NCBI GenBank assembly: GCA_026388275.1
Contig: JAPLKB010000020.1
Location: 1 to 64,000 of the forward strand
Origin: Pseudomonadota bacterium
GTDB lineage: Bacteria; Desulfobacterota; Syntrophorhabdia; Syntrophorhabdales; Syntrophorhabdaceae
Direction of reading: 5' to 3'
Length of the DNA stretch: 64,000 bases
Shown here: one piece after another, positions 13,901 through 20,163 of the stretch
How positions within the stretch are numbered: position 1 is the stretch's first letter
Layout: each line of letters begins with the position of its first letter
Translations under genes and position numbers: made by a program
Notes under the pieces: model-generated
Database searches by the model: none
The model's input: the letters and a program-made list of their open reading frames with translations, nothing else
What the model was told of the DNA's origin: nothing

Positions 13901-14800
13901 ATGAATAGTTATGACATTGTTTTTATCGGTCACACTGCAACAGGCGAGATCGTTCCTTTTGAAGACACTCCTTCTTTCGGAACAGGAGGAGGCGCAGCTT
14001 TTTTCGGAGCAACAGCGGCTGTTTGTTGCGCTAAAAAAATTGCAATGGTAACAAAAATGTCTAAAGAAGATGCTCATGTTATGGAACCCTTAAAAGCCAT
14101 GGGCATCGACATTTATCTTCAGCCTTCTTCTGAGACTACACACATGAAGATCGTTTATCCGACTGCGAATGTTGATGAAAGACAAATCTTTCAAACCAAG
14201 AGCGCAGGGTTTTTCCGGATTGAGGAAATGCCTCCCCTGGAGCCGGGATTAATCCATCTCGGCGCTCTCAGCGACCAGGAATTTACCCTGGAGTTTATGA
14301 AGGGACTTAAAGCACGCGGATTTCGCTTATCAATTGATATGCAGGGTTTTTTATGGGAGGTAGATCAACAGACACGTGCCATTCGCTACAAAGATTTACC
14401 TGAGAAGGAGGAGATCCTGCATATGGTCGAAACGGTAAAATTGGATGTAGCAGAGGCAAAAGCCCTGACAGGAACAGACGATCTTAAAAGAGCTGCTGCT
14501 ATAGTTGAAGATTGGGGATGTCTTGAAACAATTATAACGCGTTCAGATGGTGTATTGGTATACAAAAACGGGGAAAGCTATTTTGCGCGATTCTCAAACA
14601 GGAGCGTTGAAGGAAGAACAGGGCGCGGTGATGCGACAATTGGGGCATATCTTGCCCGGAAAATAGACCATTCCATTGAAGACGCCATAAAATTTGCCGG
14701 AGCCCTTGCATCGATTAAGATGGAGGCTAAAGGACCCTTTATGGGTACCCTTGAAGATGTTCTGAAAAGAATGGAAGAAACTGAAGTTGTAGTCCCTTAA
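13901..14800 (+). CDS. PfkB-family (ribokinase-like) sugar/nucleoside kinase
   Basis: About 299 residues with the ribokinase fold: an N-terminal FGTGGGAAFFGATAAV glycine motif and the C-terminal active-site segment VEGRTGRGDATIGAYLA, where the usual GAGD reads GRGD and keeps the catalytic Asp. Substrate cannot be assigned. The start at 13901 is preferred because AAGGAAGGG sits 6-7 bases upstream; an in-frame ATG at 13871 lacks a ribosome binding site. It appears to be a single-gene unit. Confidence 0.82.
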   Translation: MNSYDIVFIGHTATGEIVPFEDTPSFGTGGGAAFFGATAAVCCAKKIAMVTKMSKEDAHVMEPLKAMGIDIYLQPSSETTHMKIVYPTANVDERQIFQTKSAGFFRIEEMPPLEPGLIHLGALSDQEFTLEFMKGLKARGFRLSIDMQGFLWEVDQQTRAIRYKDLPEKEEILHMVETVKLDVAEAKALTGTDDLKRAAAIVEDWGCLETIITRSDGVLVYKNGESYFARFSNRSVEGRTGRGDATIGAYLARKIDHSIEDAIKFAGALASIKMEAKGPFMGTLEDVLKRMEETEVVVP

Positions 14801-15103
14801 TGTTATTTGAGGAAAAGCTGAAAATCTACTCCAGGGCAAAATTATCCCTGAAACAAATCTGGCAGCACAGTTTCATTTCGAGCAAGGTCGAGCAACAGCA
14901 AGAATTACAGATGGCAATATGCCCATTCAGTCCTTTCCCTGGTGGTTATTTTTATCACAAATGCGCACACTGCGTGGTTCCCCAGAGGCAAAGACTACGG
15001 ATTGAAATGCGCCCCTTAGTACGTTCCTTGATGAATATTTTTAACACCTACAACTAAGTAATTAAAAATAAATATGTTATCGACAATTACGAACTGAAAT
15101 GTG
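14801..15103. other. Intergenic stretch between the kinase and the cassette array
   Basis: No supported gene. An open frame at 14800-15057 (+) overlaps the kinase stop and has no recognisable product. It lies just beyond the last cassette boundary, so it may contain the remains of further cassettes, but no third attC was found. Confidence 0.4.
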
Positions 15104-15164
15104 GTATAACGATTGAGCTAAGCTGCTGGCGTCCTCGCCAGTCAGCTTCAGCGAATGGTTAGGC
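15104..15164 (-). other. attC recombination site of cassette 2
   Basis: Read on the minus strand: R'' GCCTAAC (15164-15158), imperfectly pairing arms with extra-helical bases, a CTGGCG/CGCCAG inner stem, an L' that reads GCTTAGCTCAATC, then R' GTTATAC (15110-15104). L'' CATTCGCTGAAGC and this L' closely resemble known attC arms. The R'' is the exact complement of GTTAGGC, the boundary at the start of the same cassette (17255-17249), as expected for one excisable circle. It lies 130 bp after the radical SAM stop codon. Confidence 0.78.
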
Positions 15165-15294
15165 AAAAGATTCCAGAAAAGGGTTGCGTCTCCTTTCTTT
15201 ACCGGTTTTTCTTTAACCGGTTGTTTTTGCAGTATCTTTAAATTTTGCCTTGACAGGAGATTATAGGATTGTCCCCCTTTACTTCATTGTGTGT

Positions 15295-16584
15295 CTAAGT
15301 TTTCCACGAAATGAAGGTTTCGCAGGCACGCCTGAAGCTATGACAGTCCGGGTCTTGTCCTAAAAAGTCGCCTGTATGAACAACGGCATTCTGTCTACAA
15401 AGTCCCCCACAAAGATACTTAATTTTGCAGAGGGAACATTTTGGTAGATTGTCCACAGTAAGAGAAGAAAAACTTTTTATTTTATGAATTGTTTCCTCCC
15501 AATCGAAGTCTATTCCCAGAATATTTCCTATCTTATGGGCATCCATACCAGAAAACCGGCGACACGGAAAAATGTTCCCGGAAGGATCGATCATAAAATT
15601 CCCTTTCGTAAGGCCACACCCTTTCCTTTTGAATTTACCCTCCACGAAGAGGTCATATCTGTCCGAAAATGAGGTAATGCCGATTTCCCCTTTTAAGTTT
15701 TTGGTGATAATATCCAGATTGATGAAATGGAATTTACGAGTATTGTGGCTAAGTTCTATCGAGTTAGTGATGGCTCTGCCTTGAGAGAATACCGTACTCA
15801 CTTGAAACGAATTTGCGCCTAACCGTATGCCAAGATTAATTGTATTTTCGATATAAGGATAGTTGAAATCTGTGGAGGTAAAGACCAAATTAGTATAAAC
15901 ACCGTACTTGGCAAGGTTTTCAATTCCCTTAACAGTTTTTTGGAAAGCCCCAGGAGATCTCATTGCATCATGAATTTCAGGTGAAGGTCCATCTAGACTT
16001 ATGCTTACCACAAGAATATTATCCAATTGTGATAGTAATTGAGCAGTTGTGTTGTCTATAAGCGTGGCATTAGTCTTGATCATGACTCCATTATTATTCA
16101 ATGTCGTCAATTGTAATAATGAGAGGAAATGTTTATGTAAAAACGGTTCTCCACCACTAAAGTCTATAATCCCAATTTGTTTATCTTTTAATTGTTCCCA
16201 AACAGTCAAAAGTAAATTTTCATTGACGTCATGATTATTAATAATATCTCCAAGGTAACAATGAGCGCACGATAAATTACATTTGTATGTAATATCCCAG
16301 CATAGTGCATCAATCTTAGATACATTGACATCAGTGGTACGAAGTAAACCAAAGTGATTTAATTTCTTTATAAATTTGGCTACGTCTTCGCTTATTTGAC
16401 CTAGTGGAATATGTGCATAATCATTACATAATTTAGAAACTATATGATCCTCAGTTTGTCCATCTTGCAAACACTCAATAATCGTCTTACCGGTATTGTT
16501 AAATTGATAGCTTGCACCATTTGTCAAGTCGAATAGCGTTATTCCAGCATTGTTCTTTTTAATGATAAGTGAATCGATAAGCAT
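15295..16584 (-). CDS. PqqD-like/radical SAM/SPASM peptide-modifying enzyme
   Basis: 429 residues. Residues 1-85 look like a PqqD/RRE recognition domain (GITLFDLTNGASYQFN, then a helical part ending NHFGLL). The radical SAM core starts with C102-x3-C106-x2-C109 (CNLSCAHC) and has SGGEP at 143-147. A SPASM region has Cys323, 341, 383, 386, 392, 396, 414 and 421, enough for two auxiliary Fe-S clusters. Such enzymes install thioether or carbon-carbon crosslinks in ribosomal peptides. AGGAG lies 7 bases before the ATG. It is 325 bp downstream of a small Cys-bearing peptide gene, inside an integron-type cassette. The substrate assignment is an inference. Confidence 0.88.
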   Translation of the reverse strand: MLIDSLIIKKNNAGITLFDLTNGASYQFNNTGKTIIECLQDGQTEDHIVSKLCNDYAHIPLGQISEDVAKFIKKLNHFGLLRTTDVNVSKIDALCWDITYKCNLSCAHCYLGDIINNHDVNENLLLTVWEQLKDKQIGIIDFSGGEPFLHKHFLSLLQLTTLNNNGVMIKTNATLIDNTTAQLLSQLDNILVVSISLDGPSPEIHDAMRSPGAFQKTVKGIENLAKYGVYTNLVFTSTDFNYPYIENTINLGIRLGANSFQVSTVFSQGRAITNSIELSHNTRKFHFINLDIITKNLKGEIGITSFSDRYDLFVEGKFKRKGCGLTKGNFMIDPSGNIFPCRRFSGMDAHKIGNILGIDFDWEETIHKIKSFSSLTVDNLPKCSLCKIKYLCGGLCRQNAVVHTGDFLGQDPDCHSFRRACETFISWKT

Positions 16585-16908
16585 CTAGTCTCCTATTGCG
16601 GGGTTATCAAATATCAGTAGAAGTCTTAACCTGCATGTGATGCAAGACGTGCGATACTCCGGTGTATGAGGTCAGGAGCTTTGATAAATAATTAGCATAG
16701 GCGACGCAGATACCGGAGTTTTGTTCGATTGCAGAAGTCACCCCTTGCGCATGTATAATTAACCAATTGCCAACCATATTGGTTGAAAGCAACGGTGCAA
16801 CAATAGTATATGGCTAAAGGGCCATTTTTTTCTAAGATGTTCTCTGCCCAAAACCATTACAGCTATTACGCCCAAAGAGTAGAATCACTGCGATGGACTT
16901 TCGTTTTA
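16585..16908. other. Spacer between precursor peptide gene and radical SAM gene
   Basis: It contains two weak inverted repeats: ATGGC/GCCAT near 16810-16830, and ACTCCGGT/ACCGGAGT arms about 66 bases apart at 16650-16730. These could modulate readthrough from the precursor gene into the maturase gene. A 61-codon TTG-started frame (16607-16792, minus) has no ribosome binding site and is not annotated. Confidence 0.4.
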
Positions 16909-17094
16909 TTAACAGTCTCCGACTCCAGCACCGGTGCACCCGCATCTATCTGTAGCAAATATTAGTGGCCGCTCATAATCTGCCGGTATTTTATTAACGC
17001 CTTGTTCAAATTGCTCTTTTGAGATCTCATAATTATTCAATAAGTCTTCAGGAATCTCATAATACCTTTCACATCTTTTAATCAAAATAGACAT
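16909..17094 (-). CDS. Candidate RiPP precursor peptide (61 aa)
   Basis: ATG at 17094 is preceded by AGGAGG at ideal spacing. The peptide has a charged leader (MSILIKRCERYYEIPEDLL...) and a compact C-terminus, DRCGCTGAGVGDC, with Cys51, Cys53 and the last residue Cys61 among Gly residues. A leader plus a Cys/Gly-rich core next to a radical SAM/SPASM enzyme with a PqqD-like domain is the usual RiPP precursor layout. I do not recognise the family. The real gene status is supported by the ribosome binding site and context, not by known homology. Confidence 0.7.
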   Translation of the reverse strand: MSILIKRCERYYEIPEDLLNNYEISKEQFEQGVNKIPADYERPLIFATDRCGCTGAGVGDC

Positions 17095-17248
17095 AACATA
17101 CCTCCTAATTTAACCTCTATTTTTTAAGATTTACCTGGTAATTATTTCCTAAAGTAAGGCTTTCACCAGCCCTAAAAAATCTTACCTGTTTCCTTGCTCC
17201 CTAAAGCCTCATATTACCATCACCTCCTTTTTTGCCAAGCAAAATGTC

Positions 17249-17320
17249 GCCTAACACCTGGGTCACTGGGGGCCCGCCTTTTGGGCGAGGTACGCGATCC
17301 AGTGCACCCGGTCGTTAGGA
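17249..17320 (-). other. attC recombination site of cassette 1
   Basis: Minus-strand reading: R'' TCCTAAC (17320-17314), L'' ACCGGGTGCACTGG pairing with L' CCAGTGACCCAGGT with single extra-helical bases, an inner CGCC/GGCG hairpin, and R' GTTAGGC (17255-17249). R'' is the exact complement of GTTAGGA found at the start of cassette 1 (17961-17955). It lies 40 bp after the stop codon of the cassette gene. Confidence 0.78.
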
Positions 17321-17960
17321 GTCTTATACTCTTTAGCTCTTTCTTCATATGTAAGGTACATTACACTTTCTTTATCTTCATTATGGTCTTATCAAGAGTA
17401 TCCACGCTCCGACGGAACCCAGTCCTAGATACGGTTGCAGTTCCATTCTCGTGAGCGATTACGGAATAAGGTTCTTCAAAGCAAAACTCCTTTCCATCCA
17501 CGGACCTCTTGAAGGAAACGGAAAGCAGAATAGAACGTCTAACGAGCTCCAAACCTTCTGGTATTTCAGTTTCTGCACCAATCTCAGTAGCGATGGCGAA
17601 GTATCGGGCAATATCGCATTGCAGAGAGGTTTTTGGTTTCAGCTTCTGATTCCATGTCCGTGTGTCAATACACCTCATAATCGGGGAGGGAGTGCCGTCA
17701 GTGTGTCGATAGATTGCCGAAACCTGCATGTGAATAGTATCAACATCACATCCCGAATTGTTGACGAGCTTAGCGGATCGCGTAGGATCGTGCAGAATGT
17801 CCTCTGGTATTAGCAAGTCTATGCGTGGCTCAACTTGAAGTTCAACTAACTTCTTCGTCAAATTCACGTAGCGCCACGTAACAAAAACCAGCACAATCGT
17901 TGCAAAGCCCTGAATGATTGTACTTATGACGGGTAGGTCTTGCATGATTCTAACTCCTAA
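17255..17960 (-). mobile_element. Integron gene cassette 1 (706 bp)
   Basis: It runs from TTAGGA (17960-17955) to the G of R' at 17255 and contains one gene plus its attC. In the circular form the attC would read TCCTAAC...GTTAGGA, fully complementary. The boundary hexamer itself supplies part of the AGGAG ribosome binding site for the gene, an economical cassette design. Confidence 0.72.
17361..17945 (-). CDS. Cassette-borne membrane-anchored protein of unknown function
   Basis: 194 residues. One N-terminal transmembrane helix (residues about 8-25, TIIQGFATIVLVFVTWRYV) is followed by a soluble domain rich in beta strands with three Cys. The topology N-TM-TKKLVELQVEPRIDLLI resembles small single-pass proteins often found in integron cassettes and defence islands, but no family is recognised. 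ATG follows AGGAGTTAGAATC. The only gene in its cassette; the function is unknown. Confidence 0.7.
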   Translation of the reverse strand: MQDLPVISTIIQGFATIVLVFVTWRYVNLTKKLVELQVEPRIDLLIPEDILHDPTRSAKLVNNSGCDVDTIHMQVSAIYRHTDGTPSPIMRCIDTRTWNQKLKPKTSLQCDIARYFAIATEIGAETEIPEGLELVRRSILLSVSFKRSVDGKEFCFEEPYSVIAHENGTATVSRTGFRRSVDTLDKTIMKIKKV

Positions 17961-17961
17961 C

Positions 17962-18382
17962 TATCAACATACTGCATGCAGTAATTTCCCAAATATTAGT
18001 ATTTGCCATGAAAGATGTCAACAAATTAAATAATTAAACATTGAACAATAATACCCAGAAAATCAGATAGATACAATACATTTCAAAAATAGATGACGGG
18101 ACAAATTTTGCAATATAACATTAACATTCCGATGTTATATTGCATGCAGTAATTGCTCACTATCGATCGGAGAGAAACTAATCTTTCAGAAGAATCACCA
18201 AATTTATTGCCATTTGAAATGTTAAACTTTTAGAGATAATGACATAAACTCGACTTCAGGAAGGAGTTTGTGCCTCAGGCAAATATCATGGGGTGAGCAT
18301 TTCAGGCTGAAACGGTTAGCTTCGGGCAAAAAACACGCAGTATTAACCTCAGAAAGACTCAGAAATTTACATGCAATTCCTG
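17962..18382. other. Intergenic region upstream of the cassette array
   Basis: A+T-rich and without a supported gene. It holds a 14-bp direct repeat (TGCATGCAGTAATT at 17973-17986 and 18141-18154) and a perfect 12-bp inverted repeat with a 10-base spacer (18110-18121 with 18132-18143). No integrase gene or recognisable attI was seen; these repeats are the nearest candidates for an array boundary. Confidence 0.45.
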
Positions 18383-18412
18383 TTGACAAAATATCCCTTC
18401 TTTCGTTAAAAT
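18383..18412 (+). promoter_or_regulatory. Promoter of the aryl-CoA/2-oxoacid operon
   Basis: TTGACA at 18383-18388, 18-bp spacer, TAAAAT at 18407-18412, about 145 bp before the first ligase gene. The start point would fall at about 18419, just before a palindrome. Confidence 0.65.
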
Positions 18413-18423
18413 AATTGATATAC

Positions 18424-18436
18424 AGAACGATGTTCT
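18424..18436. promoter_or_regulatory. Candidate operator AGAAC-GAT-GTTCT
   Basis: A 13-bp palindrome (arms AGAAC/GTTCT, extended imperfectly by ATAC/ATAT on each side) sits at about +5 to +18 of the promoter. The operon encodes an IclR-family regulator (22959-23747), the obvious candidate to bind here. Confidence 0.5.
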
Positions 18437-18555
18437 ATATACAGAATAATAAAACATAGATTAAAAGGCCAAGTGCACAGGCGAATCAAAAAAAACTATT
18501 CAACAAAATAATGTGTTCCATTGGCTGGATATAATACTGGTTAAGGAGGACGAAA

Positions 18556-20163
18556 ATGAACAACGGTCACTGGATGACGGCAAAAGATGTATTAAAGGTG
18601 AATGCATTTAAATGGCCGGATAAGATAGGCGCTAAAGATCTATACAAGGAATATACATTTAAGCAGTGGAATGAACGTTCATGCAGGCTTGCAAATGCGC
18701 TCACAAATATGGGCATGAAGAAAGGCGACAGGTTTGCCGTTCTTGCATACAACTGCGTGGAATGGATGGATATCTATGCAGCAGCTGCAAAAGGCGGGTT
18801 TATTTGCGTACCTATTATGTTCAGGCTTTCTGCGCCGGAAATGGAATATAATATCAACAACAGCGAATCCAAAGTATTTATTGTTCAGGGCGGAGCAGAT
18901 CCGAGAGACGGTAAGGCATACCCATGGATAGACATAGTAAACGGCATGAAGAAGAATCTTCCTTCAGTAGAAAAATATGTTTCCTTTTCCTCTGATAATC
19001 ATCGTTATGAAAACTTTATCTCCTTTGAAGATGCAATAGCCGCGGCAAGCCCGGAAGAACCGGCTGTGCAGGTAGATGCTGATGACATCTGGGTTCTTAT
19101 GTACACAGGGGGTACAACAGGCAAACCTAAGGGTGTTATGAAAAGCCATGCAAATATGTTTGCGCAGTTTCTTATCATGATTTACGACCATGTCTTTGGT
19201 TTTAATGACACGAATCTTCTTGTCATGCCCTGCTGTCACATCAATTCGCTGAACTATTCCTTTGTTGTCACCTGGGTGGGGGGAACGGTTATGTGCTACA
19301 ATATGATAAGCTTTGATCCTGAAGACCTGTTGAAGACTTTCTCCGACCACAGGATCACCTTTACTTCCCTTGTGCCGACTCATTATATCATGATGCTTAC
19401 CCTCCCTGATGAGGTGAAGCAAAAATACGACCTCACTTCTGTCAAGAAACTTCTTATCTCTTCTGCTCCAGCCAGACGCGATACAAAGCTCGGTATCCTT
19501 AAGATGTTTCCGAATTCCCAGCTTGACGAGGCCTATGGCTCAACAGAAGCAGGCTGCGTCACAATCCTGAAACCGGAAGAGCAGCTTGCAAAGCTTGGTT
19601 CATGCGGACGTGAGTTTATCGGCACAGATTTGATAAGGCTCTATGATGAAAATGGCAATCTTATTACAAAACCGAATACGGTTGGCGAGCTTTATTCGAG
19701 AAGTCCCATGCTCTTCGAGGGCTACTGGAAAGACCATGAAAAGACAGCATCAGTTATGAAAGACGGTTTTTTCACTGCCGGCGACATGGCTTACAAGGAT
19801 GAGGATGGGTATGTTTTTCTCGTTGACAGAAAGGCGAACATGATCATCTCCGGCGGCGAGAATATCTTCCCGTCCGAGGTGGAAAATATTGTAGGCGGAC
19901 ATGAGAAAGTAAAAGATGTGGCGGTCATTGGCGTGCCTCATGAGAAATGGGGCGAGCAGGTCACAGCCGTTGTTGTGCTTCATGAAGGGCAGACGGCAAC
20001 TCCGGAAGAAATTTCCTCGTACTGTAAGGGCAAGATCGCAGGCTACAAAGTCCCCAAGAATGTAATTTTTATCAAGGACGATGAGATGCCGAGATCAGGG
20101 CCGGGTAAGATACTTCATAGAGCATTGAGAGAAAGATATGGAAAATGGAGCGATCATCAATAA
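18556..20163 (+). CDS. AMP-forming acyl/aryl-CoA ligase 1
   Basis: 535 residues of the ANL adenylate-forming family. The P-loop-like MYTGGTTGKPKGVMKSH, the EAYGSTEAG motif, GDMAYKDEDGYVFLVDRKANMIISGGENIFPSEVE and the C-terminal PRSGPGKILHRALRE (catalytic Lys) are all present. It activates a carboxylic acid to acyl-AMP and transfers it to CoA. AAGGAGG precedes the ATG. First gene of an operon with iorAB, an IclR regulator and a second ligase, so an aryl acid such as phenylacetate is a reasonable substrate, but this is inferred from context. Its last 77 bases and stop are duplicated at 20279-20360. Confidence 0.9.
   Translation: MNNGHWMTAKDVLKVNAFKWPDKIGAKDLYKEYTFKQWNERSCRLANALTNMGMKKGDRFAVLAYNCVEWMDIYAAAAKGGFICVPIMFRLSAPEMEYNINNSESKVFIVQGGADPRDGKAYPWIDIVNGMKKNLPSVEKYVSFSSDNHRYENFISFEDAIAAASPEEPAVQVDADDIWVLMYTGGTTGKPKGVMKSHANMFAQFLIMIYDHVFGFNDTNLLVMPCCHINSLNYSFVVTWVGGTVMCYNMISFDPEDLLKTFSDHRITFTSLVPTHYIMMLTLPDEVKQKYDLTSVKKLLISSAPARRDTKLGILKMFPNSQLDEAYGSTEAGCVTILKPEEQLAKLGSCGREFIGTDLIRLYDENGNLITKPNTVGELYSRSPMLFEGYWKDHEKTASVMKDGFFTAGDMAYKDEDGYVFLVDRKANMIISGGENIFPSEVENIVGGHEKVKDVAVIGVPHEKWGEQVTAVVVLHEGQTATPEEISSYCKGKIAGYKVPKNVIFIKDDEMPRSGPGKILHRALRERYGKWSDHQ

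Follow-up and report, generated by a model that had tools for sequence, protein, structure and literature searches.

Two open reading frames, one for a 61-residue peptide and one for a 429-residue radical SAM enzyme, lie one after the other on the minus strand of the window (the whole 64 kb stretch of DNA analysed here), within a segment that has an attC recombination site at either end (Table 1). Both frames have a good ribosome-binding site upstream, AGGAGG at 6 nt before the ATG of the peptide and AGGAG at 5 nt before the start of the enzyme, and both point towards the site that we call attC1, since attC1 and the two genes all have minus orientation. Read directly on the minus strand, the segment runs from G/TTAGGC (17255/17254) to G/TTATAC (15110/15109), where the slash marks the boundary. 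The R'' box of attC1 (GCCTAAC) complements the segment's own start (TTAGGC) across 6 bases, a pairing that the earlier note on this DNA had claimed and whose coordinates, like those of the reading frames, proved exact when read again. The boundary that this note placed at 17255/17254 is also real, although what had been missed is that it belongs to a full attC (attC2), the property of a second cassette that occupies 17960-17255.

Table 1. Features of the cassette array in the window and attI-like platforms elsewhere in the same genome
Feature	Position	Strand	Details and basis
Gene cassette	15110..17254	-	2145 bp; start TTAGGC at 17254, end G at 15110; boundaries read directly, attC at both ends
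attC1, recombination site of this cassette	15104..15164	-	R'' GCCTAAC, R' GTTATAC, extrahelical G in L''; class 1 model, folding, structural scan
RRE(PqqD)-radical SAM-SPASM enzyme, candidate maturase (429 aa)	15295..16584	-	Pfam, alignment, PDB relatives
Candidate RiPP precursor (61 aa)	16909..17094	-	tail DRCGCTGAGVGDC; ribosome-binding site AGGAGG at 17106-17101
Promoter-like sequence inside the peptide/radical SAM cassette	17211..17238	-	TTGGCA-16-TAATAT, upstream of the peptide; predicted by consensus scan
attC2, recombination site of the upstream cassette	17249..17320	-	its R' gives the start of the peptide/radical SAM cassette; structural scan, folding, same-genus twin
Upstream cassette	17255..17960	-	706 bp; start TTAGGAGT, end R'' ACTCCTAA; boundary complementarity read directly
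Hypothetical protein, cargo of the upstream cassette (194 aa)	17361..17945	-	N-terminal hydrophobic stretch
Promoter-like sequence and possible diverged attI	17961..18021	-	TTGACA-17-TAATAT (18021-17993), then AATATTTGGGAAATTACTGCATGCAGTATGTTGATAG/TTAGG
attI-like platforms in the same genome	C11:69351, C25:38870, C46:26202, C56:48854, C15:61752, C16:74589, C3:2298		loci L031-L034, L041-L043

The upstream cassette obeys the same boundary rule, its start TTAGGAGT being complementary to ACTCCTAA of its own attC over 8 bases. Its cargo, the 194-residue protein, has no family match and no homologue in 297 genomes of the phylum. Upstream of it stand a promoter-like sequence and what may be a diverged attI; the likeness of this putative attI to those of seven platforms found elsewhere in the genome (see below) is suggestive only, because 1 to 12 of 500 shuffles matched it for five of the seven, which was not so for the other two. 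The consensus promoter scan, which also picked out the promoter-like sequence inside the peptide/radical SAM cassette, found the region overall not to be enriched (17 promoter-like sequences against 12.8 expected). Just upstream of the first cassette there is also a near-palindromic TGCATGCAGTA repeat in two copies 168 bp apart (17969-17991 and 18137-18159), beside which lies a perfect 13-bp inverted repeat (18109-18144).

The identity of the two attC sites was examined with a covariance model, by folding and with a structural scan. The covariance model, for which the sole training set was twelve attC sites of annotated class 1 (clinical) integrons, gave attC1 37.9 bits on the minus strand, the strand expected and its top match genome-wide (E=1.4e-6 over 3.5 Mb, a rough value since calibration was short). 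The attC-like site that the earlier note had placed at 15104-15164 is thus borne out by the model; attC2 was missed by it. The structural scan detects both. Its requirements were R boxes and an L''/L' stem with a minimum of 7 pairs and a single additional base in the 5' half. In the 64 kb it returned exactly two sites, attC1 and attC2, against none in three shuffled windows, and in two control records it recovered most known class 1 attC sites. A looser version of the scan returned zero sites in five shuffles. The layout of attC1 is R''-5-L''(3+G+6)...L'-6-R', a box and spacer order that matches aadA-type sites. attC2 has spacers of 4 and 4 and a 4+G+6 stem that keeps the extrahelical base, and its geometric twin is a site (L057:8389-8453) in an integron from another genome of the same genus. 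Both sites have DNA folding energies well under those of shuffles (z -4.3/-4.9 for attC1, -3.5 for attC2). Blastn of attC1 against plasmids yielded chance matches only, and Rfam over 14500-18700 gave no match above threshold. Together with the lineage context described below, the models, the anatomy and the boundary rules uphold the integron-type cassette that had been proposed: the segment 17254-15110 is a genuine integron gene cassette with an unusual cargo, a known vehicle with a new load.

The larger gene of this cargo encodes an enzyme whose N-terminal PqqD domain (PF05402; 37.2 bits, cut-off 23.4) and Radical_SAM domain (69.9 bits) are both above the Pfam cut-offs, while the SPASM match is weak (14.4 bits, under the cut-off of 21.5). 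Ten cluster cysteines are invariant across seven aligned proteins, three of the radical SAM motif (CxxxCxxC) and seven of SPASM (C323, C341, C383, C386, C392, C396 and C414), and the reading frame is open with all of them intact, so that the PqqD-like/radical SAM/SPASM assignment holds, as does the predicted RRE. Its relatives in the PDB are anSME, SkfB, CteB and SuiB. Among the curated NCBIfam families listed (sactipeptide, ranthipeptide, SCIFF, SbtM and others) it scores above no cut-off, the best being 120 bits against 650. A single-protein query found no close relatives in GTDB genomes and viral contigs, and an alignment-based scan of the viral contigs detected distant radical SAM proteins only. 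A defence library returned only generic viperin-type matches to the radical SAM core; an AlphaFold2 model of the enzyme alone (pLDDT 39) was set aside. The closest relatives of the enzyme, at loci L012 and L013 (28-30% identity), adjoin a large ORF that ends in CVRGPFDPECDE, a subtilase-like protease by eye, and possibly represent another peptide-modification system. In a further genome, a 57-residue peptide ending in HACSPFDPGCGVLG (L028:1154-1327) lies directly 5' of an RRE-like radical SAM gene with no attC nearby, and is likely to be a RiPP precursor.

The smaller gene fits the earlier description of a 61-residue peptide with a Cys/Gly C-terminus and a strong ribosome-binding site. Its C-terminal tail is CGCTGAGVGDC, and no other ORF among the 1376 short ones has three cysteines and three glycines in the last 13 residues, a criterion picked after the tail had been seen; the peptide ORF is also among the 11 of these ORFs with a strong ribosome-binding site. 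The G+C content drops from the first to the third codon position (0.45, 0.37, 0.31), a trend shared with the enzyme gene and with the neighbouring sugar-kinase-like gene, which fits coding but is no proof of it. Profile searches gave no family match. None of the collections examined (contigs from GTDB, viral contigs, plasmids, phages, 395 genomes of the phylum and 46 of the class) yielded a homologue, the scans of contig collections being able to detect close relatives only, so both the coding status of the peptide and its role as a substrate are argued from features of its sequence. The candidate precursor that had been proposed is therefore kept as such: the tail, the ribosome-binding site and the sharing of one cassette with an RRE enzyme make a substrate role plausible.

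The peptide gene precedes the enzyme gene on one strand, the usual order for precursor-maturase pairs, and we take such a RiPP pair to be the best reading of the cargo, with a plausible link between substrate and enzyme. A protease, an exporter and an immunity gene are all absent from the cassette, which speaks against this reading and leaves any later processing to the host. Between the two genes, at 16740-16830 on the minus strand, there are inverted repeats (AACCAATATGGTTGGCAATTGGTT) that are a possible regulatory element. When 117 loci (655 kb) around other radical SAM genes were searched for attC, three weak, chance-like matches with different geometry resulted, so that cargo of this kind is uncommon in the relatives sampled.

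The lineage provides the context for these sites. No IntI over the cut-off was found in the genome itself, a draft in 71 contigs in which an integrase could have been missed, whereas four other members of the family have a full-length IntI. In a genome of the same genus (G201), a frame-broken intI, also over the cut-off, is followed by an attI (TTAATTG/TT) and by four attC-bearing cassettes that share the orientation of intI (contig C53, locus L057). This genome has six attI-like sites. The genome studied here has nine ATGTMTASTTAATTGTTA-like sites, against one for a reversed control pattern, and seven of the nine show the features of a platform, that is, a promoter-like sequence with attI and, in several cases, a remnant of the IntI C-terminus (Table 1). 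Each of the seven is followed by a different sequence, and attC lies downstream at several. The platforms on C25, C46 and C56 are 84-94% identical over ~350 bp, and that on C11 matches the G201 integron minus ~970 bp of intI. Thus, integrase-less platforms seem to have multiplied in this genome. A clean empty site was sought in G201 and none was found; synteny with G201 stops at about window position 14820, just beyond the stop of the sugar-kinase-like gene (pfkB-type, named by eye).

Other explanations of the locus have to be weighed against a two-gene cassette with a self-contained RiPP-type module, which we regard as the probable one. A reading without any cassette, in which the hairpins would be no more than unrelated repeats, is nearly excluded: of the two sites attC2 alone was missed by the class 1 model, but this model matched attC1 at 37.9 bits, the scan found two sites in the window and none in shuffles, and the same-genus G201 carries an attC array. 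A fusion of two former single-gene cassettes, one for the peptide and one for the enzyme, that lost the attC between them would account for the 324 nt that separate the genes; the structural scan detected neither an attC-like site nor a relic of one in this gap (16585-16908), and we consider such a fusion very improbable. The same gap, long for an operon, also suits a reading that accepts both cassette and enzyme but in which the 61-residue ORF is not the substrate, or not a gene, and the enzyme acts on a protein or peptide encoded elsewhere, like the anaerobic sulfatase maturases, one of which is its nearest solved structure by sequence; conservation of the peptide, moreover, could not be shown. 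Against this, the N-terminal RRE fits leader binding, the strong ribosome-binding site and the Cys/Gly tail occur within the same small cassette, and no other ORF in it is a better substrate candidate, which makes this reading unlikely in our judgement.

A far closer competitor, to which we would give a little under an even chance, shares its origin with the RiPP-type cassette and differs only on present mobility: the array would be a fossil, a degraded CALIN-like remnant whose sites look intact by eye and which no integrase of the lineage still moves. The lack of an IntI over the cut-off in the genome, the deleted intI remnants that are all that several other platforms hold, and a mispairing of R' and R'' at two positions in attC1 speak for it; the R and L boxes and the extrahelical base kept in both attC, the open reading frames, the IntI of family members and the draft state of the genome speak against it. 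The cassette was probably acquired through integron recombination. As the search of the genome turned up no intact integrase, it is likely to be stranded now, save where IntI is supplied in trans. The mobility claimed for the pair therefore has to be qualified, as it is uncertain at present.

Compared with known systems, the locus shows both similarities and differences: (i) cassettes with two ORFs, with a toxin-antitoxin pair or with a promoter of their own have already been described (PMC8618304), so that the earlier statement that cassettes usually hold single genes is right with this exception. The toxin-antitoxin cassettes resemble ours in having attC, a circularisable unit, two ORFs and possibly their own promoter, but here the cargo is a candidate peptide and a peptide-modifying radical SAM enzyme. 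(ii) A CALIN is defined by at least two attC in the absence of an integrase (PMC9024848), and the window array, with two attC and no integrase found, agrees with this definition and not with that of a complete integron, in which a functional intI adjoins attI; unlike a CALIN, however, it has a promoter-like sequence and a possible attI upstream, and attI-like sites accompanied by intI remnants occur at the other arrays of the genome. (iii) The G201 integron is similar to the Treponema-type chromosomal integrons, whose intI lies in the cassette direction (PMC3607928), but here a single genome contains several scattered copies that have lost intI. (iv) The enzyme shares with RRE-radical SAM/SPASM maturases such as SuiB, CteB, SkfB and their relatives the domain order, the CxxxCxxC motif, the seven-cysteine SPASM pattern and a small upstream peptide, whereas it has only 24-30% identity to the relatives aligned and no NCBIfam equivalog over the cut-off, and its candidate precursor, unlike theirs, matches no described family. 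A full-text search of the open-licence literature, judged on titles and abstracts, returned no paper in which an attC cassette carries a RiPP pair or a radical SAM maturase, which is weak evidence of absence. Two-gene cassettes are known, and RiPP-type cargo did not appear in the literature searched.

For the two-gene RiPP-type cassette that we favour, we propose the following scenario. IntI would have recombined the bottom strand of the folded attC, inserting the unit in second place within a small cassette array, whose two attC sites and cassette boundaries remain in order today. Transcription would run towards attC1 from the array promoter, from the promoter at the cassette's own start, or from both, and the peptide would be translated from its strong ribosome-binding site. 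The RRE of the enzyme would then bind the peptide leader, and the radical SAM/SPASM core would modify the Cys/Gly-rich C-terminus, which we take to be the core peptide; thioether (sactionine- or ranthionine-like) links to cysteine would be the most likely modification, the chemistry being the weakest step of the scheme, and host functions would perform any further processing.

Since a genuine cassette holds a peptide gene together with the gene for a probable modifying radical enzyme, a small peptide-making kit appears to be packaged here in a form open to capture and transport by integrons. A more ambitious reading, which we offer as doubtful, is that this is a new RiPP class whose whole precursor-maturase module rides on an integron cassette, in a lineage with multiplied, integrase-deleted attI-promoter platforms that an integrase in trans could load at many expression sites. 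If true, these findings would add a minimal natural-product pathway to resistance, toxin-antitoxin systems and single enzymes as integron cargo, would make site-specific recombination a route for the spread of a RiPP system, and would render cassette metagenomes worth mining for precursor-maturase pairs. The dispersed integrase-less platforms are possibly of wider interest than the cassette itself.
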